A stretch of 64,000 nt of DNA from Anaerolineae bacterium. GTDB lineage: Bacteria > Chloroflexota > Anaerolineae > Aggregatilineales > Phototrophicaceae. The position numbers and the translations under genes are program-made. The stretch spans positions 86,008 to 150,007 of the forward strand of contig JALHNB010000008.1 in the NCBI GenBank assembly GCA_022843745.1. Reading direction: 5' to 3'. Shown here piece after piece: positions 15,274-32,637 of this stretch. Every line of letters begins with the position of its first letter. Within the stretch, counting starts at the first letter, position 1. Under the pieces are notes generated by a model. It was not told the origin of the DNA. It ran no database searches and saw nothing but the letters and a program-made list of their open reading frames with translations.

Positions 15274-16383
15274 ATGAAATATATCGACGAATACCGGGAC
15301 GCCAAAGCCGCGAAAAAATATGCCGCACTGATCGCACACCTCGTCACCCAACCCTGGACTCTGATGGAGGTGTGCGGTGGACAGACCCACGCAATCGTCA
15401 AATACGGCGTGGATGAATTGCTGCCGGAAAGTATTACCCTGCTCCATGGGCCGGGCTGCCCGGTATGTGTGACACCTGTCGAACTCATCGATAAAGCTGT
15501 CGAGATTTCCTCGCGACCCGATGTGATTTTCACGTCCTTTGGGGATATGCTGCGCGTACCGGGTACAAGGGGCGATCTGCTATCCTCAAAGGCGGCTGGC
15601 GGCGATGTGCGTATGGTCTATTCGCCACTGGACGCGCTGAAGATCGCGCAGGAAAATCCGCATAAGCAAGTCGTCTTTTTCGCTGTCGGTTTCGAAACCA
15701 CTGCTCCAGCTAACGCGATGGCTGTACATCAGGCCAGGCAGCGTCAGATCGAAAATTTCTCGATACTCGTATCACACGTCCTTGTTCCGCCCGCCATCGA
15801 AGCCATCCTGTCATCGCCTGGAAATCGGGTACAGGGCTTCCTGGCGGCGGGACATGTGTGTGCGGTAGTCGGTTACACGGAATACGAACCGCTGGCGAAA
15901 AAATATCAAGTGCCCTTCGTAGTCACGGGATTTGAGCCTGTAGATATTTTGCAGGGCATTTACATGGTCGTGAAGCAGCTTGAGGAAGGCCGCGCGGAAG
16001 TCGAGAATCAATATGCCCGCTGCGTTCGGCGCGAAGGCAACCTGCCTGCCCAACAACTCGTGCATGATGTGTTCACGATTGTGCCGCGTAAATGGCGCGG
16101 GATCGGCCAGATTCCACAAAGCGGCCTGGGGCTGCGGGAGGAATATGCGCGATTTGATGCCGAAAAACGCTTCGGCCTCACCGATTACGGCGTGGAGGAA
16201 AGCTCGGCTTGCATCAGCGGTCAGGTTTTGCAGGGCATGAAAAAACCGCATGAGTGTCCCGCTTTTGGGAAACTATGTACGCCTGAGCATCCGCTTGGTG
16301 CGACAATGGTTTCCACAGAGGGAGCGTGCGCTGCCTACTATCGCTACCGTCGCCCGGTTGAACAGCCACTTATCACCTTATAG
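15274..16383 (+). CDS. hypD: Hydrogenase formation protein HypD
   Basis: Iron-sulfur protein that, with HypC, builds the Fe(CN)2CO unit; 369 residues. Family motifs are intact: [10 protein letters not shown] near residue 30, [13 protein letters not shown] near 55-67, GFETTAP near 145 and a C-terminal set with [19 protein letters not shown] and [12 protein letters not shown] that supplies the [4Fe-4S] cysteines. The ATG at 15274 starts MKYIDEYRD. It follows the DHOD-like frame by 22 bases and precedes hypE. The end of the gene lies in a short duplicated segment. Confidence 0.95.
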
Positions 16384-16424
16384 GAAGTCACTTAACTTAT
16401 AGGAAGTCGCTTATCACCTTATAG
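16369..16424 (+). repeat. Short duplications at the hypD stop and hypD-hypE spacer
   Basis: CTTATAGGAAGTCACTTA at 16377-16394 recurs at 16396-16413 with one mismatch, and CTTATCACCTTATAG at 16369-16383 (including the hypD stop) recurs exactly at 16410-16424. The spacer is therefore built from copies of the last codons of hypD. It looks like slippage-type local duplication. Confidence 0.85.
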
Positions 16425-16432
16425 CCGGAGAT

Positions 16433-17524
16433 ATGGATATGAGCAGCATGAACGGTTCAAATATCTCACTCAGCACCCAGCAATCAACGTCCGATACAGA
16501 CTTTACACTCGCCTGCCCTATACCGATTTCCGACTATCCTATTGTCCTGATGGCACACGGCAGCGGCGGCAAGTTGATGCACGGCCTGCTGGAAAAATTG
16601 GTACTGCCCACGTTTAGCAATCCACTTCTGGAAACTCGTCATGACGGCGCGGTTTTTTCAGCCGGAAACGCGAAGCTGGCGTTCAGCACCGATTCGTATG
16701 TGGTGCATCCCCTGTTTTTTCCAGGTGGCGACATCGGCACATTAGCCGTCAACGGTACGGTGAACGATCTGGCGATGTGCGGCGCGAAGCCGCTGTATTT
16801 GAGCGCCGGATTCATCCTCGAAGAAGGCTTGCCGATGGATACGCTCTGGCGTGTGATTCAATCCATGCAGCGCGCGGCGGAAGCAGCAGGTGTCCAGATC
16901 GTCACGGGCGACACCAAAGTCGTTGACAGAGGCAAAGGCGATGGCATTTTCATTAACACTGCTGGCGTTGGGGTGATCGAACATAACCTGACGATTGCGC
17001 CTTCCAGTGTGCGCCCCGGCGATGCGGTTTTGCTCAACGGTGACATCGGACGGCATGGCATGGCAATTATGGCGGTGCGTGAAGGGTTGGCATTTGAAAG
17101 CGAGATTGAAAGCGACTGCGCCCCTCTCGCCTCCAGTGTTTTAAGACTTCTCGACGCGGGAATCGAAATCCACTGTCTGCGCGACCTGACTCGTGGCGGC
17201 CTTGCAAGCGGCCTCGTCGAGATCGCAGAAAGCGCCGGTCTGCATATCCAGATTGATGAAACCGCGATTCCGATTATTGAAGATGTGCGCGGTGCATGTG
17301 AAATTCTCGGCCTCGACCCGCTGTATGTCGCCAACGAGGGGCGTTTTGTCGCCTTTGTCCCGGCTGACCAGGCCGATCACGCAAGAGTAATCATGGGCGA
17401 TGATGCTCGATTGATTGGCACTGTTCAGGACAATTCTTCGAATCTCGTCACCATGCGAAGTGCTATCGGTGCCAACCGCATTGTCGATATGCTCAGCGGC
17501 GACCAGCTTCCGCGTATCTGCTGA
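16433..17524 (+). CDS. hypE: Hydrogenase maturation factor HypE
   Basis: HypE dehydrates the carbamoyl group on its C-terminal cysteine to a thiocyanate, using ATP, and supplies the cyanide ligands; 363 residues. Marks are [13 protein letters not shown] near residue 37, the AIR-synthase-like fold ([42 protein letters not shown]) and the essential C-terminus PRIC. The ATG at 16433 or 16439 could be used; GGAG at 16427-16430 precedes both. It is the last gene of the hox-hyp run. HypA and HypB, which insert nickel, are not in the window. Confidence 0.95.
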
Positions 17525-20837: not shown

Positions 20838-21149
20838 TTGAACTTAATAGGAAGGCAGTATGGTCAGTGGATTAATAATCGGGATGAAAGTCAGAGAACA
20901 ATTATTAAACGCAAGATCACTACACTCTCTATCATTTCAATTGCCAGCGTAGTATCGCTCATGAGTGCAGCACTGATTTATCTATCGCTGGATCAGCCCC
21001 AACCCGATAGTGCGTATTCTTCTTTTGTGAATGTACTTCACCGCGAAGCCAGCACGCTAACGATAGCTGGCTTGTATTTTCTCATTCTGGCTGTAATTAT
21101 CTACCTCGTATTACAACTGCGAAAATACTTCTTCCACCAATCCAAATGA
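20838..21149 (+). CDS. Small membrane protein of unknown function, start uncertain
   Basis: A 103-codon frame starting at TTG 20838 encodes two hydrophobic segments, residues about 28-50 (ITTLSIISIASVVSLMSAAL) and 72-95 (LTIAGLYFLILAVIIYLVL), with a charged start (RDESQRTIIKRK). I do not recognise a family. A strong ribosome site, GGAAGG, precedes ATG 20860, but that ATG is in another frame and gives only 30 codons, so either the TTG start is real or a frameshift has separated the start from the body. The 3' end overlaps the convergent FAD oxidoreductase gene by 39 bp. Confidence 0.4.
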   Translation: MNLIGRQYGQWINNRDESQRTIIKRKITTLSIISIASVVSLMSAALIYLSLDQPQPDSAYSSFVNVLHREASTLTIAGLYFLILAVIIYLVLQLRKYFFHQSK

Positions 21150-22238
21150 GCGCGTCATACCAGAACCACCTAGACCATTGACAATCGTGACATTCGATTC
21201 CGGGTGCAAAACAACCTCAGTTTTCCCCTTAACCAATGGGTAAATGCCGTGCCAGCGTTCGGCGATTTCAAAGGTTGGTGCCTGCGCGAAGGTGTATAAA
21301 TAATCCATCATTGCCTTATTAATATCTTCGCGTTCAAATGGGTCAAACGTGTGGCCGTATTCGTGGTGATCGCCAATCGTCAATTCACCAAGCGATGTTT
21401 GAGACAGCAAAAGATGGATGTGGTGCTGGCGATGAAACGGAAATTCACGCTCCATACGCTCTGCCAACGCGGGAAATGAAGGACAGTGAGAAAAGTAATT
21501 GTAATGCGCCATAGTCAAGCCAGCGCATAAATTCGGGCCGAGTTTCCAGCCACCGGGTTGCGCCACCGTGCGCAGCATCTGCAACTTGCAGCGCGTAATG
21601 CCCGTTTCGGCATATTCCTGTGGATACAGGGTTTCAAAATCCGCGCCGCTGCACACAAATACCTGATCGGCCTGCCATACTCCAGCCGTCGTTTCAATAT
21701 TGGGCATGGAAATGTCTGTCACCAGAGTGCCAAAATGAAGTTCGACTCCATATTCCTGATGCAGCCATTTCGGGATCACACCGATCGCCTGACGCGGATC
21801 GAGATTCAATTCGGTGGTACTCCAAAGTGACCCTTTTAGGCCCTCTGCTTTTACAGCGTGACTCTTTTCAAGTGTCTGTTCGGACGTGAGAATCTGACAA
21901 TATTCCTGCGCTTCAGGAATTGATCGGAAAAATTCTTCCAGCACTATCATTTCGTCATCGTGGTATGCCAGATGCAGCGAACCATTTTCCAGGCAGTAAA
22001 AATCGGCGCGACGGCTGAGATCGAGCCAAATTTCGCGACTTTTCATCGCTAGTTGAAAAGCGCTTCCTGTTTTGCCGACGGGCCACACCTGCCCAAAATT
22101 GCGAATCGATGCACCTACCGCCGGATTGGTGCGCTCAAACAGCGCAACTTTGAATCCGCGCCGAGCAGCCGACAGCGCACAAGCCAGCCCGACAATCCCC
22201 GCGCCAACAACAGCGACATCTACTTTTGGCGGCGTCAT
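21111..22238 (-). CDS. FAD-dependent oxidoreductase of phosphonate catabolism (DAO family)
   Basis: A D-amino-acid-oxidase-type flavoprotein, 375 residues, with the FAD-binding VAVVGAGIVGLACALSAA at residues 8-25 and GGSGMTRSFG near the C-terminus. Members of this clade (the TIGR03364 group) recur next to phnX, and published work reports that such enzymes oxidise 2-aminoethylphosphonate or its N-methyl form to phosphonoacetaldehyde; I infer this role here from context. The phnX gene lies 18 bases upstream in the same operon and would use that product. No PhnW transaminase is seen in the window, which fits an oxidase replacing it. AGGAG sits just before the ATG. It is the last gene of the phn operon. 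Confidence 0.82.
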   Translation of the reverse strand: MTPPKVDVAVVGAGIVGLACALSAARRGFKVALFERTNPAVGASIRNFGQVWPVGKTGSAFQLAMKSREIWLDLSRRADFYCLENGSLHLAYHDDEMIVLEEFFRSIPEAQEYCQILTSEQTLEKSHAVKAEGLKGSLWSTTELNLDPRQAIGVIPKWLHQEYGVELHFGTLVTDISMPNIETTAGVWQADQVFVCSGADFETLYPQEYAETGITRCKLQMLRTVAQPGGWKLGPNLCAGLTMAHYNYFSHCPSFPALAERMEREFPFHRQHHIHLLLSQTSLGELTIGDHHEYGHTFDPFEREDINKAMMDYLYTFAQAPTFEIAERWHGIYPLVKGKTEVVLHPESNVTIVNGLGGSGMTRSFGLVEEVFSQL

Positions 22239-22256
22239 AACATGCTCCTGAAGTCA

Positions 22257-23081
22257 TTAGGGCTGTTCGCCCATTTGAAGGCGAGTTTCAATATCAGCCA
22301 GAATCGCAGGCACATCGGCAATGCTGCGAACAATGTAATGCGCGCCTGCTTCGCGCATCCGTCCCTCTATTGGGACGAGACGTGCGGCGAGTTCCGTGAG
22401 GGGCAGCGTGTATATTTCGGATTGGCTCAGACCGAGTTCGTTGCCCGTTTGCGTCACGCCAATCGTCCAGGTGCCCGAGTTCAGCCCTTCCTCGATATCT
22501 GGCAGCGTGTCGCCCACCTTGACCATCGCGACCATTGGATAAACGCCTAATTGCATCGCATTCTGGTAAATCATCCAGGGAGCAGGTCGTCCGGCTGGCA
22601 CATCACCAGGTGTAATTGCGGCATCCGGGACATAGCCACGGCTGGCTGCCAATGACAGAACTCTATTCATGATTGTTCGACTGTAACCCGTGGACGTGCC
22701 AATTTTCAGCCGGTGTTCACGGCAGTATTGAATCGTTTCCAGAGTACCGGGTATAAGCTCAGTGTAATTCAAGACAGATGCCAATTGAGCTTCCAACGAG
22801 TCGAGATACATGGCTTCAATATCTGCTTCATTCCAGGCGCGGCCTTTTACCAAGCGCCAGCGTTCGGCGATCTCAGGTTGTTGAGCAATCGCGCGGATAT
22901 GATCTTTTTTCTCCAAACCCATTGAGGCGCGGGCATGTCGAATACCGATTTTTACCCCTTGCTGCTTAAAAACCTTGATAAAAACCGCGACGGGCGCGAA
23001 ACAACCATAATCAATCGTGGTCCCCGCCCAATCAAAAATAACAGCCTTCAGAGGCCCGGTATATGGTTTGTGTTGAGTCAT
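22257..23081 (-). CDS. phnX: Phosphonoacetaldehyde hydrolase (phosphonatase)
   Basis: HAD-superfamily enzyme that splits phosphonoacetaldehyde into acetaldehyde and phosphate; 274 residues. The nucleophile motif is AVIFDWAGTTIDYG at about residues 13-26. The cap domain carries ARASMGLEKKDHIRAI, with the Lys that forms the Schiff base to the substrate in MGLxK. HAD motif 2 is seen near TSTGYS and the late acidic residues in KVGDTLPDIEEG. All key residues are present, so a working enzyme is expected. It sits between the hexapeptide transferase gene, which it abuts, and the FAD oxidoreductase. Confidence 0.94.
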   Translation of the reverse strand: MTQHKPYTGPLKAVIFDWAGTTIDYGCFAPVAVFIKVFKQQGVKIGIRHARASMGLEKKDHIRAIAQQPEIAERWRLVKGRAWNEADIEAMYLDSLEAQLASVLNYTELIPGTLETIQYCREHRLKIGTSTGYSRTIMNRVLSLAASRGYVPDAAITPGDVPAGRPAPWMIYQNAMQLGVYPMVAMVKVGDTLPDIEEGLNSGTWTIGVTQTGNELGLSQSEIYTLPLTELAARLVPIEGRMREAGAHYIVRSIADVPAILADIETRLQMGEQP

Positions 23082-23740
23082 CAGCTATATTTTTCTATAA
23101 ATTGTTCGATATTATATAAATCATCAAAACGTGCTTCGAGCGTGACGCGATCCCAATCCCACCATGCGATTTCAAGCAGTTTTTCAATAATAGAGTCTGA
23201 AAATCGTTTGCGAATCGGCTTCGCAGGAACGCCGACAGCCAGGGTGTAAGGGTCAACATCCTTGGTCACGACTGCGCCGGAGCCAACCACCGCGCCCGTA
23301 CCCACTTTGACACCCGGCATAACAATGACGTTATGGCCCAGCCAGGTGTCATGACCGATCTCGCATTGATGCGAACGACGCCACTCGAAGAAATCAGGAT
23401 CATCTTCGCCGAGGCCGTACATTTTGCGGCGGTAGGTTATGTGATGCATCGTGACACGCTCCATTGGGTGATTACCCGGATTGATGCGCACATGAGAGGC
23501 GATATTGCTGAATTTGCCGATTTTGGTGTAGATGATCTGGTTATCGCCTGCTGTATAGCTGTAATCGTCCATCGTGGTTTCGATCAGCCAGCTATTTGCG
23601 CCAACCTCTGTCCATTCGCCGATATAGCAATCTCGGATGAAAACACCATCATGAAAAACAGGCTTTTCCCCCAATTTCTTCGTCGTGAGTGTTGCCCGAT
23701 GGTGTTCTGTGAGATATTGGTCGATGTAGTGCAGAGTCAT
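23081..23740 (-). CDS. Phosphonate-operon hexapeptide-repeat acetyltransferase
   Basis: Left-handed beta-helix transferase, 219 residues, of the group common in C-P lyase operons (TIGR03308 type). Hexapeptide repeats are clear in the C-terminal half, such as IGHDTWLGHNVIVMPGVKVG followed by TGAVVGSGAVVTKDV and the closing GVPAKPIRKRF. Xenobiotic-type acyltransferases of this fold acetylate small amines or hydroxyls; the substrate here is unknown. ATG 23740 is chosen since AGGTG precedes it and its ATGA overlaps the phnM stop; a frame from 23791 is longer but starts inside phnM. Confidence 0.87.
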   Translation of the reverse strand: MTLHYIDQYLTEHHRATLTTKKLGEKPVFHDGVFIRDCYIGEWTEVGANSWLIETTMDDYSYTAGDNQIIYTKIGKFSNIASHVRINPGNHPMERVTMHHITYRRKMYGLGEDDPDFFEWRRSHQCEIGHDTWLGHNVIVMPGVKVGTGAVVGSGAVVTKDVDPYTLAVGVPAKPIRKRFSDSIIEKLLEIAWWDWDRVTLEARFDDLYNIEQFIEKYS

Positions 23741-24936
23741 GCTTGCACCTGCGTTGTCAGCTGTGACAACCGCGCCATATGAGCGTCCCAATAAACTGGA
23801 TGTCCATTGCGCAGCACTGCGCGAATACGTGGATGGTCGGGCGCTTCTTCGACCAGCACCAGATCGGCGTTAAGACCTACCGCAATCCGCCCTCGATCAT
23901 CCAGGCCAACCGCCGCTGCTGGATTTTCAGCAACCAGCTTCATGCTCTTGTAGAGCGGCATGATGCCATCGCGTGCTAGTTTAAACGCGGTTTGCAACAT
24001 GGACGCGGGATAATAATCCGTCGCCAGAATATCGACTACCCCGGCACGAATCGCCTCCATCGCGCTCAGATTGCCCGTATTCGATTCGCCGCGATAGGCA
24101 TTCGGCGCGCCCATGATAATGTGCATCCCCTGCTGACGGGCATAATTCGCGGCCTCCAGCGTCACCGGAAATTCGCTGATGGTCACGCCGAGGGAGTGCA
24201 TTTGATCGACCTTACCCGGCTTATCATCGTCATGAGAGGCAAGCGGAATCTGATACTCCCGCGCGATCCGGCAGACTTCCGCAGCAATCTCCCAATTGCG
24301 CGGCGTTTCAGCGACTTCCTGCATCCGTTCGGCCATCTGCTCTTTCGCGTTGTTTTCGAGCAGATCACGTGGAATACCGAGCCACTTCACCATAAACTCA
24401 ATATAGCGTTCGACATTCGAATACTGCCCCTGCCCCGGCGTATGATCCATGAGCGATACCAGATCAACCAGCTTTTCCACCAGCAAGCCTTCGAGAATCG
24501 AGGCTGTTTCGGGGTTCACAATTTCGAAACGGGCATGAACGCGAAAATCGACCATCAATTGGTCGCGTTTTTGGTTAATCACGCGGATAATTTCAGTCGC
24601 CTTTTTCTGGGTGCGCAGGTCTTTCTGATGCCACGCGAAAGCAACCGCCGCAAAAGCAGTGGTTATACCCGCACCTGCCAGCCGTTTATCCAATTCGTAC
24701 AGCGACATATCGACTGGAAAAAGTGCATTCGGGCGCGGCTCGATGTCGCGTTCCAGCATATCGCCGTGCAGGTCGATCACGCCGGGGACGAGTGTCAGGC
24801 CAATGGCACTCAGGCCGCGACCACGCATATCACCTTCGACGATCTCCGCAATCCGGCCATCTTCAATATTCACAGCGCCGCGTTCCATCACGCGATCCGG
24901 CAGCACGATTTTCAGATCAGTCAACCACATGTTCAA
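23737..24936 (-). CDS. phnM: Alpha-D-ribose 1-methylphosphonate 5-triphosphate diphosphatase PhnM
   Basis: Amidohydrolase-fold enzyme that removes pyrophosphate from ribose-1-alkylphosphonate 5-triphosphate in the C-P lyase pathway; 399 residues. The metal-site segments are VIDLHGDMLERD near residue 54, LMDHTPGQGQY near 160 and ASHDDDKPGKV near 225, with ATDYYPASML near 305 giving the last Asp. Its start overlaps the end of phnL by 20 bases. An in-frame second ATG two codons later is an alternative. It is followed by the hexapeptide transferase gene. Confidence 0.94.
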   Translation of the reverse strand: MNMWLTDLKIVLPDRVMERGAVNIEDGRIAEIVEGDMRGRGLSAIGLTLVPGVIDLHGDMLERDIEPRPNALFPVDMSLYELDKRLAGAGITTAFAAVAFAWHQKDLRTQKKATEIIRVINQKRDQLMVDFRVHARFEIVNPETASILEGLLVEKLVDLVSLMDHTPGQGQYSNVERYIEFMVKWLGIPRDLLENNAKEQMAERMQEVAETPRNWEIAAEVCRIAREYQIPLASHDDDKPGKVDQMHSLGVTISEFPVTLEAANYARQQGMHIIMGAPNAYRGESNTGNLSAMEAIRAGVVDILATDYYPASMLQTAFKLARDGIMPLYKSMKLVAENPAAAVGLDDRGRIAVGLNADLVLVEEAPDHPRIRAVLRNGHPVYWDAHMARLSQLTTQVQA

Positions 24937-25624
24937 TTACCTCGGATGTTGTCGTCAGGCGGATTTCAGAGTCAACCAGATGCAGAATGTCTTCAGGATG
25001 ATGGAAGACGCCAATCATCGCAACACCCTGGGCTTTCAATTCGGCCAGACGTGCTTGCAGCGATTGGCGTGTGGCGGAGTCGAGCGAAGCTGTCGGCTCA
25101 TCGAGCAGCAGCAGACGGCGCGGAGCGATCAAGGCCCGTGCAAGATTCACTTTTTGTTGTTCACCGCCGGAAAAGGTTGTGGGGTAAGCCGACCACAATG
25201 GCTGCTTGAGGCCAAATGAGTCTAATGTTTCTCTGGCTTGTTCGATGGCTTCTTCCCACGCCATACCGCCATCGACCAGCGGTTCGGCAACGAGTTCCAG
25301 CGCACTCACACGCGGGCGCGGGCGCAAAAATTGGGTAACAAAGCCCAATTCTTCACGGCGGAGCAGCGCAATATCCACATCAGCCGCATGAGCGAGGTCG
25401 ATATTTCCCTGTCGAGCAGCGAATAACGCCGTGCCGGATGTGGGAATATAGGTGCGAAAAAGACAGCGCAGGAGCGACGATTTGCCGACACCATTCGCGC
25501 CGCCGATAAGCATGAATTGACCGGCTTCCAGCGTAAATGTGAGATCGGCAAAAACATCGATCTCACGCTGGAGATGGTCGATATAAAAACGTTTGGTCAG
25601 AGATTCAACTTGCAATAGAGGCAT
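24917..25624 (-). CDS. phnL: C-P lyase ABC-type ATPase subunit PhnL
   Basis: ABC-ATPase-like protein associated with the C-P lyase core rather than with transport. From ATG 25624 it has 235 residues: Walker A GGANGVGKSS near residue 40, signature FSGGEQQKVNLARAL, Walker B LLLLDEPTASLD, and the switch histidine in GVFHHPEDI. A longer frame from 25657 would overlap phnK by 20 bases; the shorter start gives the family-like MPLLQVESLTKRF but has only a weak ribosome site. Confidence 0.88.
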   Translation of the reverse strand: MPLLQVESLTKRFYIDHLQREIDVFADLTFTLEAGQFMLIGGANGVGKSSLLRCLFRTYIPTSGTALFAARQGNIDLAHAADVDIALLRREELGFVTQFLRPRPRVSALELVAEPLVDGGMAWEEAIEQARETLDSFGLKQPLWSAYPTTFSGGEQQKVNLARALIAPRRLLLLDEPTASLDSATRQSLQARLAELKAQGVAMIGVFHHPEDILHLVDSEIRLTTTSEVIEHVVD

Positions 25625-25637
25625 CAAATTTGCTTTC

Positions 25638-26462
25638 TCACAATTTCGCGTGAACAAGCTGCTGCGTATAAGCGTCCTGCGGGTCTTCTAAAATCTGGTC
25701 AGTCAAACCCTGCTCAACCACTCGACCATGCCGCATCACCATCACGCGGTCAGCCAACGTGCGGATCACACCGAGGTCGTGCGAGACCAGAATAATCGTC
25801 ATACGGCGTTCGCGCTGCAAACGTTTGAGCGTATCCAGCACCAGCGCCTGCACCGACACGTCCAATCCTGTCGTTGGCTCGTCCAGAAGGAGCAGCGCTG
25901 GTTTCAACGCCAGCGCTTTCGCCAGTTGGACGCGCTGCTGCATCCCACCGGAAAGCACACGCGGCGGGTCATCCATCCGATTGAGGGGAAACTCAGAAAT
26001 AGCCAGCGAGTCACGCGCGGCCTGTCGCAGCGTCGCAAATGTGCGTTCCCCTGTAATCAACAGCCTTTCGGCGACATTGCCGCTGCTGGTGAAGCGCATT
26101 CGCAGGCCGAGATGGGGATTCTGATAGACCACACCAATATTTAAAATCTGGACTTCGCGGCGGGCAAAGCGATCCAGTTGATATAAATCTTCCCCGAGCA
26201 CGCTTGGAATATCGAGCGTATAAGTGCCGCTGTCAGGCATTTCTTCCAGATTCAATAGGCGCAGCACTGTCGATTTACCAGAGCCGGATTCGCCGACGAT
26301 GCCCAAAACTTCGCCGGGATAGGCTTCCACATTCACGCCAGTAACTGCTTCAATTGCGCCATAGCGCTTGCTCAGGCCAACGGCCTGCACCAATGGCGAC
26401 GCGTTGACCAGGCGTGGCGCATCAAAGCGATGGTTGGACTGGTGGTTTGAGATAGCCATCAT
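25638..26462 (-). CDS. phnK: C-P lyase ABC-type ATPase subunit PhnK
   Basis: ABC ATPase that binds the PhnGHIJ core complex, known in E. coli to contact PhnJ; 274 residues. Walker A is GIVGESGSGKST, the signature is LSGGMQQRVQLAKAL, Walker B is LLLLDEPTTGLD and the switch His is in LVSHDLGVI. The start overlaps phnJ by 41 bases; the N-terminal 25 residues before QAVGLSKRYG vary in the family, so a later start is possible. The ATPase residues are complete, unlike the metal-site residues of the PhnJ partner. Confidence 0.92.
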   Translation of the reverse strand: MMAISNHQSNHRFDAPRLVNASPLVQAVGLSKRYGAIEAVTGVNVEAYPGEVLGIVGESGSGKSTVLRLLNLEEMPDSGTYTLDIPSVLGEDLYQLDRFARREVQILNIGVVYQNPHLGLRMRFTSSGNVAERLLITGERTFATLRQAARDSLAISEFPLNRMDDPPRVLSGGMQQRVQLAKALALKPALLLLDEPTTGLDVSVQALVLDTLKRLQRERRMTIILVSHDLGVIRTLADRVMVMRHGRVVEQGLTDQILEDPQDAYTQQLVHAKL

Positions 26463-27363
26463 AGTAGAAATCCCCTTGATCGTCGTAATAAGTCGCGCCC
26501 ACCGCTTCGTTCTTCACCAGTTTTTCGGCATAGCCGCTGTCGGATAGCTCGTACTGCGATGTGCCATCTTCCTGCGGCAGTTCGTTCATAAATTTGTTTT
26601 GCACGCCCGTCGTTTTGCACACCCATCCCTGCTGATCCTCGACCTGGAATGGCACATCACTAAATTCCAGCGGATAGACATCGGTGTATGGCGGCACCGC
26701 ATAGAGTCGTTTTTCGCGTCCAGCGGAAAGCAGAGTCAAATGCGCCGCCTGATGCAATTTCGGCGTATCCCAACGAGGAATTGGGCTTGGGCTGATGATG
26801 TAAAGCCCATTGACCAGCGACGGGTAACTCGCGCCCTGGATATATTGGCGATAGCGCACAAGTTGCTCGTACAGCAGCAGCCACATTTGCCCATAATCGG
26901 AATCGGCGTGTAACTGGTGAGCTTTTGACATATCCGCCGTGACACCGCGCAGGGGTTCGGGGTCAGGCACTTGCAGCACAAGCGCCTGCCCTTCCTGCAT
27001 CACTTCTTCGGGGATACGGTGACGGCTTTGCAGAATCGTCGCCTTCAGTGTGTCGGTTGTCGTCTCCGCGCCACTCATGCGCGTGATAAATCGCCGCAGA
27101 TTCGCCGCATTCACCGAGTCATCTGCGCCCTGGTCGATGACCTTGACAACACTTTCCGGCCCGACCAGACTGAGTGTGACCTGCAAGCCACCCGTTCCCC
27201 AACCACGCGCAATCGGCAGTTCGCGGCTGGCATAAGGCACCTGATAGCCAGGGATAGCGATGGCCTTCAAAATACGGCGACGCAGTTCGCGTTTGGCATA
27301 GGCATCCATAAACCCGTAGCTATAATCCTGTCGCGGCTGTGCGAGATCGCTGAGTGTCGTCAT
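26422..27363 (-). CDS. phnJ: PhnJ-family C-P lyase core protein lacking the Fe-S cysteines
   Basis: Clear PhnJ homologue, 313 residues from ATG 27363 (ATGA overlap with phnI); a longer frame to 27624 is unlike PhnJ. The body matches well: AIPGYQVPYASRELP keeps the glycine (G39) equivalent to E. coli glycyl-radical Gly32, and GWGTGGLQ, VIDQGADD and AGREKRLYAVPP are conserved. E. coli PhnJ uses Cys241, Cys244 and Cys266 for the radical-SAM cluster and Cys272 for the thiyl step. Here only one cysteine exists in the whole protein, C249 in GWVC. Its neighbours by alignment are G246 (for C241), L273 (for C266) and A279 in SDSGYA (for C272). The other frames on this strand do not restore a CxxC. The C-terminus also has about 30 extra residues. 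Canonical C-P cleavage should be impossible for this protein alone. Confidence 0.88.
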   Translation of the reverse strand: MTTLSDLAQPRQDYSYGFMDAYAKRELRRRILKAIAIPGYQVPYASRELPIARGWGTGGLQVTLSLVGPESVVKVIDQGADDSVNAANLRRFITRMSGAETTTDTLKATILQSRHRIPEEVMQEGQALVLQVPDPEPLRGVTADMSKAHQLHADSDYGQMWLLLYEQLVRYRQYIQGASYPSLVNGLYIISPSPIPRWDTPKLHQAAHLTLLSAGREKRLYAVPPYTDVYPLEFSDVPFQVEDQQGWVCKTTGVQNKFMNELPQEDGTSQYELSDSGYAEKLVKNEAVGATYYDDQGDFYYDGYLKPPVQPSL

Positions 27364-28463
27364 GGCTGCACCTCTGTGGCGGTTTCTGGCTGCTGGTTTG
27401 GCTTTTCGTCTTTGCTGTAGAAAGTAGCGATCACTTTGCGCACGGAGTCCATACTGCTGGCGAATGTGACATAGTGCGGCAGCTTGAAGTGAATACAAAA
27501 GCCGGACGCTTCGACGGGTTCGGTGTGGTACATCACGAATTCTTCGCTGTGAGCTGGATGCGGTTCCTGGCTGTTCATCTCCATATCGAGTGTCGAGGCG
27601 GCGATCAGCTTCACCTCGTTCCAACCCATCGTGGCTGCGAAGCCGAGTTGGTAGCCCGCTTTCCCATTCTCGCCACCGCTGGTGATGACCTCAGCCTGGC
27701 TAACCCGCACCCGTCCGGCGCTGAATGCTGCGCCTGTCACTGGATGTTTGAGTTCAACTTCGGCATAACCCAAGCGCAGTTCGTTCACTGTCGGGTGAAT
27801 CAGACCATAGCCGCGCATACTGGCGTAACCGAGCGCCAGCACACCACCCGTATCTGCCCGTGCCAACGCCTGCAAACGATGTGCGCGTGGCGCGGGAAAC
27901 AGCACCGCATCTGTCGTCACGTCAGGAATTGACACAGGCTCAATTGGGTCTGGCTCAATCGTTGGCAACAATCCCTGCGAACGCTGCCAATCGGCAACAG
28001 CGGGATAAGTTGGCGGCGCAGGGTTTTCCGCTTCCGGTGCGACAGGTACTTCATCTTCGGCAATGCCATCCAAAATATCCAGGCGCAGCAGTCGATGACT
28101 GTAATCGAGCGTCGGGCCAAGCACCTGACCACCCGGAATATCCTTAAAAGCCGCAGAAATGCGCCGCACCGTCAACACTTCGTTAGCAGAAACAGGTTCG
28201 GCGTAGGCTATACGCGGCTGTGTCGAGCGATAAGCCCGAAGCAGCAAAACAGCCTCGTATAAATCACCGCCGGTTTGCGCCAGCGCCAGTGCCGCCAGGT
28301 CCGGCGCGTAGAGTGAGCCTTCGCCCATCACTTTGTCCAGCAAAAACGGCAACTGCTGCTGGATGAGTTTGACGGCTTCTGGTGTCAGTTTCCCAAGCAT
28401 GGCCTGATAAAAAAGTTCGGCGTGCTGGATCGCGTCTTCGCCACCACGTGCTGCTACATACAT
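27360..28463 (-). CDS. phnI: C-P lyase core subunit PhnI
   Basis: PhnI displaces adenine from ATP to make ribose-1-phosphonate triphosphate, helped by PhnG, H and L; 367 residues. It begins MYVAARGGEDAIQHA as in the family and has GYASMRGYGLIHPTVNELR near residue 225. The C-terminal IHFKLPHYVTF keeps both histidines (H325, H330) that in E. coli bind a zinc together with Cys241 of PhnJ, although the PhnJ cysteine is lost here. It overlaps phnJ by ATGA and lies 13 bases after phnH. Confidence 0.93.
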   Translation of the reverse strand: MYVAARGGEDAIQHAELFYQAMLGKLTPEAVKLIQQQLPFLLDKVMGEGSLYAPDLAALALAQTGGDLYEAVLLLRAYRSTQPRIAYAEPVSANEVLTVRRISAAFKDIPGGQVLGPTLDYSHRLLRLDILDGIAEDEVPVAPEAENPAPPTYPAVADWQRSQGLLPTIEPDPIEPVSIPDVTTDAVLFPAPRAHRLQALARADTGGVLALGYASMRGYGLIHPTVNELRLGYAEVELKHPVTGAAFSAGRVRVSQAEVITSGGENGKAGYQLGFAATMGWNEVKLIAASTLDMEMNSQEPHPAHSEEFVMYHTEPVEASGFCIHFKLPHYVTFASSMDSVRKVIATFYSKDEKPNQQPETATEVQP

Positions 28464-28476
28464 CTCTGTTTATCCT

Positions 28477-29022
28477 TTAGCGCCGTTCGACCCGCACGCC
28501 GCGCGGTAATCCGACGACGTTTTCACCATCCACGAAATAGACATCCCAGCCTAGCGGAAAACGACAGACCGTTTCGCGAATCTCCCAGAAAATTTCGGGA
28601 ATATTGTCGATTTGCAACGCTTGCTGACCATTGATGCCTGGGCCTAGTAAAGCCATCTGCATTCCACTACCCAACTTGCAGCCGATAAGGAGTGTTGCAC
28701 CATCGTCCGGGTAGAGCATCGTGCCAATACTGGCTTCGCGAATATCACCTAATTCCGACTCGCCCAGTGACGTATAAAAATGATAAGCCGCACGCCCAGT
28801 CGACAAGGCTTTCGCGCCAGTCTGCGCAAGAGCAGACTCCAAGTGAGAATCTGGCGTGTAATAGCTGGTTTCCAGATCAAGCAGCGTTTCGGCGATCAAC
28901 GCGAAATTCGTTTCGGCATCGGGCAGTTGATAAATACGTCCCGGATAACTGAGCGCCCACATGAGCGCCAAAAATGTGTCACGGGTGCGGGATTCTGCGG
29001 GTGTATAAGGCGGCACAGTCAT
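28477..29022 (-). CDS. phnH: C-P lyase core subunit PhnH
   Basis: PhnH is a non-catalytic or accessory subunit of the PhnGHIJ core, with a PLP-transferase-like fold without cofactor; 181 residues. Family features are the start TRDTFLALMWALSYPGR, a GTMLYPDDGATLLIG segment near the middle and LLGPGINGQQAL followed by FPLGWDVYFVDG near the end. The start codon shares one base with the phnG stop (TGATG). Length matches the family. Confidence 0.92.
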   Translation of the reverse strand: MTVPPYTPAESRTRDTFLALMWALSYPGRIYQLPDAETNFALIAETLLDLETSYYTPDSHLESALAQTGAKALSTGRAAYHFYTSLGESELGDIREASIGTMLYPDDGATLLIGCKLGSGMQMALLGPGINGQQALQIDNIPEIFWEIRETVCRFPLGWDVYFVDGENVVGLPRGVRVERR

Positions 29023-29450
29023 CAGAATGTCTCCATTTCAATGCGAGTAGCCTCAACCTGCCGCAGCAGTTCGTCATCAGCTTGCAGTTGAGCCATTTGC
29101 TGTGCGTCGATAAAAGCATTGATGCTGTCTCGTTGAATGTCGGCCTGAATCGCGGCATCCAGCAAAGCGACAGCCAGCGCTTGCAATAAATCGCGCCCGA
29201 CACAAACAGCATAGCCTTCGACACCGTTTTCAAGACGGACATGCGCTTCTGCTACCAGCACTTCGCCCAGATGAAAGCGTGTCCCCTTTGCGGTGTCTGT
29301 ATAGGGCAGCATGACCAGCCCGGTACGATTCTGTAAAACCATAACTGTGCCGAGGTGGGCGATAATCTCATCGGCAAATAGCTTAACCGCCTCAGCAGGC
29401 GCATGGGTCAAAATCGTTAGATATTGGGTTTGAGTGAAAGCAGATTGCAC
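29022..29450 (-). CDS. phnG: C-P lyase core subunit PhnG
   Basis: Small subunit of the PhnGHIJ complex, 142 residues. The family segment GTRFHLGEVLVAEAHVRL is found near residue 56 and RDLLQALAVALLDAA near 86. It opens the core-gene set, directly after phnD, and phnH follows with a one-base overlap. The gene is intact and of normal length. Confidence 0.92.
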   Translation of the reverse strand: MQSAFTQTQYLTILTHAPAEAVKLFADEIIAHLGTVMVLQNRTGLVMLPYTDTAKGTRFHLGEVLVAEAHVRLENGVEGYAVCVGRDLLQALAVALLDAAIQADIQRDSINAFIDAQQMAQLQADDELLRQVEATRIEMETF

Positions 29451-29532: not shown

Positions 29533-30576
29533 CTAGCGAGCTTGCAGATCAATGTTCAGCAGTGTTGCGATGTCACGGAGTGAGTTGTACAGAGCATCAA
29601 TGCTCTCAACACCTGCTTCTTCGGTTGGATCGACATAATAGCGTTCCAGTTCGTTCACCAAATCCTGGTTATCGGCAATTGCCAACAGCGCATCCTTGAC
29701 GGCAGTCTTGAATGACTCTGGCAGGCTTGCCTTAATCGCAAATGGTGTCTCAGGAATCAGAGGTGACTGGTGGAAGACAACCAGGCTGCCTTCGGGGCAG
29801 GCTTCATAAATCGCAGTGATTTCTTCCTGGGTCATCGCGTCCAGATAGGGGAATTCTTCGGCAGTCGCGGGGCCATCAATACCTTTATCCTCGAAACCGC
29901 ACAGGGAAACCCCTGCTTCTTCGACCTGGACAGCCAGGTTGCCATCAAATGTTGCGGCGGCTTCAACGCTATCATTCCAAACCGATAGAACGGCGGTTGG
30001 GTGGTTGCCAGCGAACGAAACATTGGCAAATTCTTCAATCTGACCGGGATCCGTGAATTCCTGATTGAGCAGGATGTCCGTTGCCGGAACGAGATAACCA
30101 CTGGTGGATGCCGGGTCGGTAAAGGCAAAGCTGCGGCCTGCGAGATCGGCAATGCTGGTAATACCCGACCCCTTCTTGGTGAACATTAAGCTGTAGTAAC
30201 CGGGTACTTCTGCCGGATTAACTTCAGTTGCATAGTTGGCGACAGCAATCGCTTCGGCATCAGCAACATCAGCAGCCAGCACATAAGAGAATGGGCCAAC
30301 TTCCATCGCGTCCGCGCGGTTGGCAGCCATCGCTTCGATGACCGCATTATAGCTTGTACCTGTGATGAGAACGGTGCGAACGCCCAGCGTTTCTTCCAGG
30401 TAGACACGCATCGGTTCGACGGCAGCCAGCGCCTCTTCAACATTATCGCCAGGATAAACGCCAATAATGAAGGTTTCCGGCCAGCCAGTGCGGTCAACTT
30501 CCTGTGCAGATACCAGCGTCAAACTCATCAAAGCAGCAGCAGTAATCAGAATAAGGACGAGAACGAGCTTTTTCAT
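29533..30576 (-). CDS. phnD: Phosphonate ABC transporter substrate-binding protein PhnD
   Basis: Extracytoplasmic binding protein for phosphonates or phosphite-like anions, 347 residues. ATG 30576 is chosen because GGAG precedes it by six bases and because it starts a Sec signal peptide, KKLVLVLILITAAALMSL ending in VSAQ. The mature part has GVYPGDNVEEALAAVEP, the anion-binding ITGTSYNAVIEAM and FTDPASTSGYLVPA, all typical for PhnD. There is no lipobox cysteine. It sits between phnE and phnG; ligand preference cannot be read. Confidence 0.92.
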   Translation of the reverse strand: MKKLVLVLILITAAALMSLTLVSAQEVDRTGWPETFIIGVYPGDNVEEALAAVEPMRVYLEETLGVRTVLITGTSYNAVIEAMAANRADAMEVGPFSYVLAADVADAEAIAVANYATEVNPAEVPGYYSLMFTKKGSGITSIADLAGRSFAFTDPASTSGYLVPATDILLNQEFTDPGQIEEFANVSFAGNHPTAVLSVWNDSVEAAATFDGNLAVQVEEAGVSLCGFEDKGIDGPATAEEFPYLDAMTQEEITAIYEACPEGSLVVFHQSPLIPETPFAIKASLPESFKTAVKDALLAIADNQDLVNELERYYVDPTEEAGVESIDALYNSLRDIATLLNIDLQAR

Positions 30577-30626
30577 GTGATCTCCATTTCTTAAATAGGC
30601 TTTGCTCATAAAAGGCGTTGATTGCG

Positions 30627-31589
30627 CTAGATGAAGCGCAAACGTACCCAATTACTGAAACGATCAATGATCGTGACGGCAATTACCAGAATTAGCGCCG
30701 ATCCCAGCACTTTGGCGTAATCACTTGTCCCGGTGTACTTAAACAGCAGAAAACCGACACCGCCCGCACCGACATAACCGAGGATCGTGGCGTGACGCAC
30801 GTTGCTTTCAAAGTAGATGATCGAGTACGAGATAAATAACGGGACAGCTTGTGGGATAACGGCATAGACAAACGTTTGAAGACCACTCGCACCAGTCGCG
30901 CGCACCGCATTGACCTGTGCCGGGTCAATTTGTTCAATCGCTTCGGAAAAAACGCGCGCTAACGAACCGACAGATCCAAATGCCAGCGCCATCACGCCCG
31001 TAAATGGGCCTAAGCCAACAGCGGCGACAAAAAGGAGCGCGTAGACCAGTTCCGGGATCGAACGCATAAAATTCAGAAACAGGCGTACAACCTGGTAGAT
31101 CACCGGGTGCGGTGACACATTACGAGCCGCGAGGAGCGACAGTGGCAGCGCCATAATGACTGCCAACAGCGTACCGACAATTGCCATCTGGATCGTTTCA
31201 AAGATGGCAGTGATGATCGGCAGCCAACCAATTTCCCATTCATTACCGAAAATATTGATTGTCGAGCGCTCAATTGTGGTGTTGACGATGGGCTGACCGA
31301 ACAGATTGATCGTTACTTGCTGCGTGCGGGCGACCTCAAATTCGGGCGGGAGCATTCGCACGATCAGATTACCCATCGCGATAAAGGGATCAAAAATGGA
31401 TGTCACGCGATTGGTCGCGCTCGGCCCCACCCCAGCCAGACTCCATGACAGAATGGCTACTGCGATGAGGATGAATACCAAACTGCGAAAAGTCAGGTTG
31501 GGCAGTGGTCGCAGAAGCTGCGCTCTCAGAATTTCGGGCGATAGAGGCGGCTGTGAACTGCTATGCGTTGAAGCTGCTGTATCGGTCAC
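30627..31589 (-). CDS. phnE: Phosphonate ABC transporter permease PhnE
   Basis: Inner-membrane permease of the phosphonate importer, 320 residues, starting with GTG at 31589. A first membrane segment lies near residues 35-53 (LVFILIAVAILSWSLAGVG), followed by a long loop and then four to five more segments. The EAA motif region reads ARVFSEAIEQIDPAQVNAV near residue 205. It follows phnC by 14 bases. The protein is longer than many PhnE proteins because of the N-terminal tail and the loop near residues 80-110. Confidence 0.92.
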   Translation of the reverse strand: MTDTAASTHSSSQPPLSPEILRAQLLRPLPNLTFRSLVFILIAVAILSWSLAGVGPSATNRVTSIFDPFIAMGNLIVRMLPPEFEVARTQQVTINLFGQPIVNTTIERSTINIFGNEWEIGWLPIITAIFETIQMAIVGTLLAVIMALPLSLLAARNVSPHPVIYQVVRLFLNFMRSIPELVYALLFVAAVGLGPFTGVMALAFGSVGSLARVFSEAIEQIDPAQVNAVRATGASGLQTFVYAVIPQAVPLFISYSIIYFESNVRHATILGYVGAGGVGFLLFKYTGTSDYAKVLGSALILVIAVTIIDRFSNWVRLRFI

Positions 31590-31603: not shown

Positions 31604-32413
31604 TTATGCGACGACTGCCGGGCTACCGAGAAGTGCATTATTTTCAGGAGACATGGAACTGCCAGCGTTCTGATCTTTGTCAAAGCGATAAATGCGGTTC
31701 ATGGTATGGCTGTCAAGCGTTTCCGGCTTGCCGTCGTAGACAATCACACCCTGAGCAATCCCTATAAGGCGATCTGCATATTTTTTCGCAAGTTCGACAT
31801 CATGAATATTGATGAGTGTCAGCACCTCGACTTCACGCGCCACCCGCGCCAGATCGGCCATCACCTGCACCGACAATTCAGGATCGAGGCTGGCAACAGG
31901 TTCATCCGCCAGGAGAATTTTGGGGTTCTGTGAAATAGCGCGAGCAATCGACACACGCTGTTTTTCGCCACCAGAGAGCCGATCCGCTCGGAAATTTGCA
32001 CGGTGCAGCATGTGAACACGTTCCAAACTCTGGAGCGCAATTTCCCGATGACTGCGGTCAAAATACCCAAGTAAACTGCCGAAGCCTGGGTTGTAGCCCA
32101 ACCGTCCTATCAGCACATTGGTCATGGCCGGCAGGCGCTCAATCAGGTTGTACTCCTGCCATATAAACCCGATATGCCGACGAGTTAACCGAAGCTGCTG
32201 TTGGCTCATATGGGTGATGTTTTCGTTATCGAGAATGATTTCACCGCTGGTCGCAGTCTGTAAGCCGTTGATACAGCGCAGTAAAGTTGATTTCCCAGCA
32301 CCAGAGCGGCCAATGACGGCGATAATTTCCCCGCGTTTGGCGCTTAGTGAAATAGATTTCAATGCTTCATTGCCATTTGAATAAACGACCTGCAAATTCT
32401 TGACTTCAAGCAT
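31604..32413 (-). CDS. phnC: Phosphonate ABC transporter ATP-binding protein PhnC
   Basis: ATPase of the phosphonate importer and first gene of the phn operon; 269 residues from ATG 32413, or 276 from ATG 32434. Walker A is GRSGAGKSTLLRCINGL, the signature LSGGEKQRVSIARAI, Walker B ILLADEPVASLD and the switch His is in LINIHDVEL. The start MLEVKNLQVVYS fits the family better, but neither start has a strong ribosome site. The upstream region is shared with the divergent propeller gene; I saw no recognisable Pho box in it. Confidence 0.92.
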   Translation of the reverse strand: MLEVKNLQVVYSNGNEALKSISLSAKRGEIIAVIGRSGAGKSTLLRCINGLQTATSGEIILDNENITHMSQQQLRLTRRHIGFIWQEYNLIERLPAMTNVLIGRLGYNPGFGSLLGYFDRSHREIALQSLERVHMLHRANFRADRLSGGEKQRVSIARAISQNPKILLADEPVASLDPELSVQVMADLARVAREVEVLTLINIHDVELAKKYADRLIGIAQGVIVYDGKPETLDSHTMNRIYRFDKDQNAGSSMSPENNALLGSPAVVA

Positions 32414-32637
32414 ATTTAGTTGATCCCAATTCATTCATCAATTGACGGGAATGCCATTCCGAATTGGAGCGACTGCGGAAATATAGCGAGGGTCTATCAA
32501 GTTGCAATGAAGTATTGATTAAGGGTGACGTGTATTTTGTGAAATACCATTTAAGCAGATTACCCCTAATTTTTAATAATATTCCGGCACAATCGCATTT
32601 CCATGATTTTATAATTTTCGCCCGTGTTGGAGGACAA

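Follow-up and report, generated by a model that had tools for sequence, protein, structure and literature searches.

Cysteine-poor PhnJ proteins in intact phn operons of Chloroflexota and other bacteria: candidate metal-free members of the carbon-phosphorus lyase complex

Carbon-phosphorus (C-P) lyase lets bacteria live on phosphonates, and methane is set free by it in oxygenated waters. A phn operon of an Anaerolineae bacterium (Chloroflexota), found in a 64,000-nucleotide stretch of DNA that we call the window (assembly GCA_022843745.1, contig JALHNB010000008.1, positions 86,008 to 150,007), raises the question of how such a complex might work when its PhnJ subunit lacks the cysteines to which the cleavage chemistry is assigned. 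The operon lies on the minus strand of the window and consists of phnC, phnE, phnD, phnG, phnH, phnI, phnJ, phnK, phnL, phnM and a TIGR03308 transferase gene, with the whole C-P lyase core, phnG to phnM, standing together. Of the three cysteines assigned to the Fe4S4 cluster of the radical S-adenosylmethionine (SAM) type in Escherichia coli PhnJ (Cys241, Cys244 and Cys266), the window PhnJ keeps one (C249); the thiyl Cys272 is replaced by an alanine (A279), and the glycyl-radical site Gly32 is present as G39. In one paper (PMC11978286), the four cysteines serve as the mark of a working PhnJ, and in another (PMC12413358), the PhnJ cysteine domain is a primer target. No description of a PhnJ lacking these cysteines was found in the portion of the open-access literature covered, and a subscription journal may hold one. 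On balance, we lean towards the reading that the PhnJ of the window is a C-minus form that holds no metal, and that it belongs to a C-P lyase complex which still works and would cleave the C-P bond without a radical-SAM cluster or a thiyl radical at these residues.

The preliminary description of this DNA, made from its letters alone, had recognized a PhnJ homologue along the full length with one cysteine, and profile searches agree. The protein matches Pfam PF06007 with 398.7 bits (cut-off 25) over positions 2-272 of the 275 in the profile, and in HMMER its residues 13-281 align with E. coli PhnJ (PDB 4xb6_D, E 1.5e-77). C249 is the sole cysteine. In the HMMER alignment, the cysteine of the motif CKTTG falls on the first cysteine of E. 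coli CAICG, and SDSGYA falls on SDTDYC; an alignment of 129 PhnJ proteins likewise puts C249 at the Cys241 position, with T252 replacing Cys244, L273 replacing Cys266 and A279 replacing the thiyl Cys272. Both alignments uphold the first-described disappearance of cysteines for the cluster and the thiyl, together with L273 and A279; C249, which had been set against Cys244 (and G246 against Cys241), belongs at Cys241, with T252 taking the place of Cys244. The equation of G39 with Gly32 is borne out by the 129-row alignment, and a frameshift had rightly been discounted, CxxC being absent from all three frames of the minus strand over 26425-26720. The suggestion that a second PhnJ might be encoded elsewhere is rejected for this genome: the profile search of the genome (98.6% complete, 117 contigs) returned a single PF06007 match, and a canonical copy is absent from 16 of the 17 other genomes with such a PhnJ that were checked.

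The cysteines are lost as a set. Among the 129 distinct PhnJ proteins aligned, one of them that of E. coli, the complete set of four is found in 56 (canonical), none of Cys244, Cys266 and Cys272 in 73 (Cys-poor) and a partial set in 0; the ratio 73:56 is no prevalence figure, as 80 loci were fetched with patterns taken from Cys-poor PhnJ. Mapping which PhnJ proteins lack the cysteines, as the preliminary description had proposed, places these 73 in several phyla. Identical copies were collapsed by a 215-residue key, and loci numbered after L187 lie outside the 129 (31 canonical and three Cys-poor open reading frames (ORFs), two of which are one gene). In the Cys-poor rows, position 241 holds cysteine in 62 and aspartate in 11, the latter retaining none of Cys241, Cys244 and Cys266; position 244 is threonine in 58 and serine in 15, position 266 carries a hydrophobic residue (L, I, V, A or M), and the rebuilt turn has the pattern [C/D]xx[T/S]G. 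Ten residue types, never cysteine, occur at position 272, which therefore has no conserved role in Cys-poor PhnJ. Gly32 and the 47-50 loop are retained in 72 of the 73 rows, and a YYD-type tail, by a loose pattern, is found in 63, not including the Thermus, Dehalococcoidia and Bacteroidota rows. The exception among the 73, from a Verrucomicrobia metagenome-assembled genome (MAG; locus L134), has its Cys-poor reading frame split in two, by decay or an assembly fault; it is counted in the 73 and in the 69 PhnK operons given below and was dropped from the trees for the approximately unbiased (AU) tests and from the PhnI, PhnG, PhnH, PhnM and PhnL counts. One PhnJ N-terminal fragment fused to other protein sequence (L018, genome G258), a chimera or contamination, was left out of the counts.

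Cys-poor PhnJ makes up a large clade plus further cases and is not an accident. Counting the genome of the window wherever it falls in the group, PhnJ is present in 10 of 61 genomes (this genome and its relatives), all 10 without the three cysteines, and in 12 of 396 genomes of the class, five of them shared with those 10; all 12 full-length copies in the class are Cys-poor, the 13th match being the fragment L018. Across the phylum, 37 of 400 genomes gave 38 matches, of which 12 are Cys-poor and 26 canonical. The corresponding figures are 14 of 111 genomes in Deinococcota (11 Cys-poor, 3 canonical) and 5 of 245 in the class to which the Dehalococcoidia locus L124 belongs (1 Cys-poor, 4 canonical). 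The class of Fibrisoma has PhnJ in 1 of 345 genomes, namely Fibrisoma, and its family in 2 of 111, both Cys-poor, while the class of an alphaproteobacterial MAG yielded 49 matches in 48 of 289 genomes; the 33 that were read comprise 31 canonical and 2 Cys-poor proteins, one of the latter being locus L118. Named carriers include Oscillochloris sp. ZM17-4, Candidatus Chloroploca, Meiothermus MAGs and Fibrisoma montanum, and the gene is carried on plasmids in Thermus thermophilus HB8 (pVV8), Mesorhizobium sp. AR07, Haematobacter massiliensis, Sinorhizobium sp. B11 and Nitratireductor sp. OM-1. Six annotated plasmid records, among them that of the HB8 protein WP_014677597.1, name the Cys-poor protein C-P lyase PhnJ without comment. 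Sequencing or assembly error, which the preliminary description had left as a way out, is ruled out by independent assemblies, the losses being the same in 10 of 10 PhnJ proteins among the 61 genomes and in 12 of 12 full-length matches of the class. Both PhnJ types occur together in a Rhodobacterales MAG, the one exception among the 17 genomes mentioned above, and in the alphaproteobacterial genome G1613, where two phn operons (L221 and L222), one of each type, sit on separate contigs, 2.38 Mb and 0.60 Mb long. In a genome of the same phylum as the window (G680, locus L049), two sets of canonical phn genes are separated by about 12 kb, one on each strand.

Selection on Cys-poor phnJ is, to judge from sequence divergence, strongly purifying. 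The ratio of nonsynonymous to synonymous substitution rates (dN/dS) between the window gene and four relatives is about 0.03-0.08 over the whole gene and 0.03-0.12 over the former knuckle (residues 241-284), values that are rough, with dS near or over saturation. Where a Cys-poor phnJ is flanked by 3.5 kb or more of sequence on either side (38 loci), BLAST found phnH, phnI, phnJ, phnK and phnL in all 38, phnM in 37 and phnG in 36 (by the detection used for the subunit counts, 63 of 72 Cys-poor loci yielded a PhnH and 55 a PhnM), which agrees with the earlier claim of a complete operon under selection. With phnG to phnM retained, 5-phosphoribosyl 1-phosphonate (PRPn) should therefore still be made. 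The AlphaFold2 model of the window PhnJ, for which a canonical PhnJ was modelled as a control, has a mean predicted local distance difference test score (pLDDT) of 89.6 and reaches 91-97 in the predicted metal-free domain (residues 241-310), the extension residues 281-310 included. The top Foldseek matches of this model are the PhnJ chains of 7z19, 7z18, 7z17 and 4xb6 (root-mean-square deviation 2.1-2.5), with a target TM-score of 0.90-0.92 and 44-45% identity to the E. coli chains.

Phylogeny suggests that the loss arose about three times. In a tree of the N-terminal part of PhnJ, from which the cysteine region was excluded, the label changes three times, and the starred branches force two changes. 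Because PhnJ alone left monophyly undecided, PhnI, PhnJ and PhnG were concatenated (64 rows, LG+G4); the starred branches of this tree force three origins, and a single Cys-poor clade is rejected (log-likelihood 299 lower, p-AU 7e-60). One origin is the large clade, which spans Chloroflexota, Deinococcota including T. thermophilus HB8 and some Alphaproteobacteria, and the others lie once in Dehalococcoidia and once in Bacteroidota. The Dehalococcoidia case is the clearest: L124, without the three cysteines, and L136, with all four, are 78% identical with no gaps, and the loss therefore happened in place.

A second cysteine module, in PhnK, is missing from the same operons. In 50 of the 54 readable canonical operons, PhnK carries a CxxC...CxxC insert ahead of Walker A, and this four-Cys insert is found in 0 of 69 readable Cys-poor operons, in agreement with the column counts (PhnK was unreadable or not found at 4 Cys-poor loci and 1 canonical locus). 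In Bacteroidota L138 and L146, the insert is present with three of its four CxxC cysteines replaced in place. Insert-less PhnK stands beside a four-Cys PhnJ in L136, L171, L122 and L149, which suggests that the PhnK change precedes the PhnJ loss. E. coli PhnK presumably lacks the insert as well; its near relative L149 was read so here.

By comparison, the site at which the product is bound is untouched. In the cryo-EM work (PMC9947105), 5-phosphoribosyl 1,2-cyclic phosphate (PRcP) is modelled at the PhnI-PhnJ zinc site and held by PhnJ Arg107, His108 and Gln124, and the closed-state zinc ligands are given as two PhnI histidines, the PRcP ligand and three waters, without mention of Cys241; a passing remark in PMC11978286 has the four PhnJ cysteines join the zinc coordination too. 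The window PhnI residues H223, H325 and H330 correspond to the E. coli zinc-site histidines His219, His328 and His333, and H325 and H330 are found in 72 of 72 Cys-poor rows and H223 in 71. The preliminary description had correctly singled out H325 and H330 as zinc ligands (His328 and His333), whereas the partnership with Cys241 that it assumed does not appear in the passages of the cryo-EM report that were consulted. The window PhnJ also has Arg107, His108 and Gln124. In Cys-poor complexes the zinc/PRcP site stands unchanged, while the C-terminal domain of PhnJ has lost cysteines 244, 266 and 272 together.

Since the cysteines assigned to the cluster and the radical are gone, the textbook C-P lyase mechanism cannot operate as written in Cys-poor systems. 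Zinc-ribbon proteins, bacterial ribosomal proteins among them, occur as C+ and C- forms. In these, the entire cysteine set is lost together and the fold is apparently kept metal-free, as would be the case in PhnJ, but in PhnJ the set that was lost had an assigned catalytic role. In the favoured reading, the C-terminal domain of PhnJ would fold metal-free, as zinc ribbons do after zinc loss. PhnI, with PhnG, PhnH and PhnL, would load the phosphonate onto ATP, and PhnM would trim the product to PRPn. The C-P bond would then be cut at the conserved PhnI-PhnJ site, with zinc on two PhnI histidines and with Arg107, His108 and Gln124 of PhnJ, under the control of the PhnK/PhnL ATPases, and no radical-SAM cluster or thiyl at the lost positions would be used. 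A broader proposal, which we put forward tentatively as a possibility, is that C-P cleavage by the complex sits at this zinc/His site without the PhnJ cluster or the Cys272 thiyl; the PhnJ knuckle and the PhnK insert would be accessory metal modules, jointly dispensable and discarded by at least three lineages, PhnK first where the order is visible. If true, this would also do away with the 30-angstrom puzzle that the structures from E. coli pose.

Several observations weigh against these readings. In E. coli, cleavage is assigned to SAM, the cluster, Gly32 and Cys272 (PMC9947105 and PMC11978286), and the Cys-poor data do not show that E. coli works otherwise. Gly32 persists, though a non-radical enzyme would need no radical site, and the C-terminal tail of the window gene is less constrained than the rest (dN/dS 0.06-0.57 against the same four relatives). 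AU tests on PhnJ alone did not reject all Cys-poor proteins as one clade (p-AU 0.063), gave p 0.309 for the large clade joined with Dehalococcoidia, and p 0.652, at a likelihood slightly above that of the free tree, for its union with Bacteroidota; the rejection of a single origin comes from the concatenation, a lone test for which a simpler model was used. The link between PhnJ and PhnK amounts to 2-3 independent pairs and is not significant, and Cys-poor rows more often have certain cysteines in PhnI, PhnG and PhnH, none of them universally. As to the fate of PRcP, two Cys-poor operons (L181 and L187) have a DUF1045/TIGR03223-type gene and PhnN alongside, and DUF1045 may act on PRcP, but of 58 Cys-poor loci only these 2 have such a pair; the genome of the window has no evident enzymes for processing PRcP, as no PhnP scored above cut-off and no DUF1045 match was found, the latter being no proof, as the control matched nowhere either. 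The two genomes that hold both PhnJ types could mean that the two do different jobs.

The main rival is a different last step, in which the Cys-poor complex would activate phosphonates and then either follow another cleavage route or hand the intermediate over to another enzyme, so that it would be no strict C-P lyase; we consider this rather unlikely. It would account for the disappearance of all radical-chemistry residues save Gly32 and usually Cys241, and for the presence of canonical and Cys-poor phnJ in the same two genomes, as if for two jobs. It also draws on the genes that adjoin the window operon, which is followed by phnX and a TIGR03364 flavin adenine dinucleotide (FAD)-dependent oxidoreductase gene (21111-23081), but of 58 Cys-poor loci only 5 have PhnX nearby and 4 the oxidoreductase, and the pair would be a second, separate phosphonate route. 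PhnX as a general partner of Cys-poor PhnJ is ruled out by this count. The commonest cluster of unassigned neighbours within 9 kb occurs in 8 of the 58 loci, and therefore no new gene accompanies the group; the joint retention of phnG to phnM and the unchanged PRcP-binding residues point instead to the same intermediates. Among neighbours in general, the loci with phnX or the oxidoreductase include the nearest PhnJ relatives of the window, and a recurrent small gene that, judged from its sequence, resembles a 2H-type phosphoesterase is found close to 7 of 58 Cys-poor operons, against 0 of 21 among the canonical (for example at L108, near 15938-16741).

It is improbable that the radical persists by other means, with a separate activase acting on Gly32 and the thiyl supplied by another subunit, such as PhnI C323 (27495-27497), two residues before a zinc histidine. 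Gly32 in 72 of 73 rows is what this would predict, and cysteine stands at PhnI 323 in 65 of 72 Cys-poor rows vs 10 of 54 canonical ones; Cys-poor systems of the Thermus type, of Dehalococcoidia and of Bacteroidota, however, have alanine, valine and threonine, respectively, at this position, and C323 was rejected as the replacement thiol. An ORF with a radical-SAM-like motif lies near 5 of 58 Cys-poor loci, and these five share no gene by eye that could be a linked activase, a search that did not extend to unlinked ones.

A cluster still bound by Cys241 and other ligands, or by another protein, seems very improbable. Cysteine and aspartate, the two residues found at position 241, are both possible metal ligands, and besides PhnI 323, cysteines at PhnG 83 (46 of 71) and PhnH 115 (36 of 63) are commoner in Cys-poor than in canonical rows. 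Against this, position 244 is always threonine or serine, 266 is hydrophobic and 272 is free to vary; no cysteine universal to Cys-poor rows was found in PhnI, PhnG or PhnH, PhnK lacks the insert cysteines, and PhnL has no cysteine peculiar to these rows, its C65 being found in 48 of 62 Cys-poor yet 45 of 49 canonical ones. Decay of a relic gene under relaxed selection, or a sequencing error, is hardly credible: residues held to be catalytic are lost, the L134 copy is broken and the tail evolves faster, but the form is conserved across several phyla in intact operons, with dN/dS at or below 0.12 outside the tail, and in independent assemblies and complete plasmids such as pVV8.

Set beside E. 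coli PhnJ, the Cys-poor form shares its fold, partner subunits, zinc/PRcP residues and Gly32 but lacks Cys244, Cys266 and Cys272 (in some rows also Cys241) and has a C-terminal extension. The canonical PhnJ proteins of Chloroflexota and Dehalococcoidia (L019-L034, L129, L136 and L171) come from the same phylum and operon type, but they have all four cysteines and usually a PhnK with the four-Cys insert. The pVV8 operon of T. thermophilus HB8 (NC_017767, WP_014677597.1) is complete and encodes a Cys-poor PhnJ of the same clade, but lacks the YYD extension and has alanine in place of PhnI C323. Features of the window are collected in Table 1, where the names phnC, phnD and phnE are presumed ones. 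PhnK and PhnL of the window (24917-26462) score under the NCBIfam cut-offs for these families, and their HB8 counterparts are annotated merely as ATP-binding cassette proteins.

Table 1. The phn operon of the window, its neighbours and the PhnJ codons discussed in the text
Feature	Position in window	Strand	Basis or remark
phnC-like ATPase	31604..32434	-	ORF, position, similarity across operons
phnE-like permease	30627..31589	-	ORF, position, similarity across operons
phnD-like binding protein	29533..30651	-	ORF, position, similarity across operons
phnG	29022..29450	-	TIGR03293 96 bits, cut-off 89
phnH	28477..29022	-	TIGR03292 108.4 bits, cut-off 91.5
phnI	27360..28463	-	PF05861 384.9 bits
phnJ, C-minus form	26422..27363	-	313 aa + stop; PF06007 398.7 bits
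G39 codon (glycyl-radical site Gly32)	27247..27249	-	kept in 72/73 Cys-poor rows
R114 and H115 codons (PRcP-site Arg107, His108)	27019..27024	-	invariant in 129/129 rows
Q131 codon (PRcP-site Gln124)	26971..26973	-	invariant in 129/129 rows
C249 codon (Cys241 position)	26617..26619	-	Cys (62) or Asp (11) across the 73 Cys-poor rows
T252 codon (for Cys244)	26608..26610	-	Thr (58) or Ser (15) across the 73 Cys-poor rows
L273 codon (for Cys266)	26545..26547	-	L, I, V, A or M in Cys-poor rows
A279 codon (for thiyl Cys272)	26527..26529	-	ten different residues among 73 Cys-poor rows
C-terminal extension, residues 285-313 (GATYYDDQGDFYYDGYLKPP...)	26425..26511	-	
phnK, without N-terminal four-Cys insert	25638..26462	-	best NCBIfam match TIGR02323, 227.5 bits, cut-off 302.85
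phnL	24917..25657	-	best match TIGR02324, 225.4 bits, below cut-off 256.3
phnM, ribose 1-phosphonate 5-triphosphate (RPnTP) diphosphatase	23737..24936	-	TIGR02318 422.4 bits, cut-off 390.55
Hexapeptide-repeat transferase of phn operons	23081..23791	-	TIGR03308 269.2 bits, cut-off 201.65
phnX, phosphonoacetaldehyde hydrolase; neighbour outside the conserved set	22257..23081	-	TIGR01422 331.9 bits, cut-off 220
FAD-dependent oxidoreductase, neighbour	21111..22238	-	TIGR03364 430.3 bits, cut-off 285.1

Natural, selected and repeatedly evolved complexes that are free of these cysteines, one of them from T. thermophilus HB8, a laboratory strain, bear on whether the cluster and the thiyl radical are needed at all. 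If the Cys-poor complexes are active, the mechanism of C-P lyase needs revision. If they are not, a different phosphonate reaction is present in many genomes, and surveys based on phnJ may overcount methane producers.

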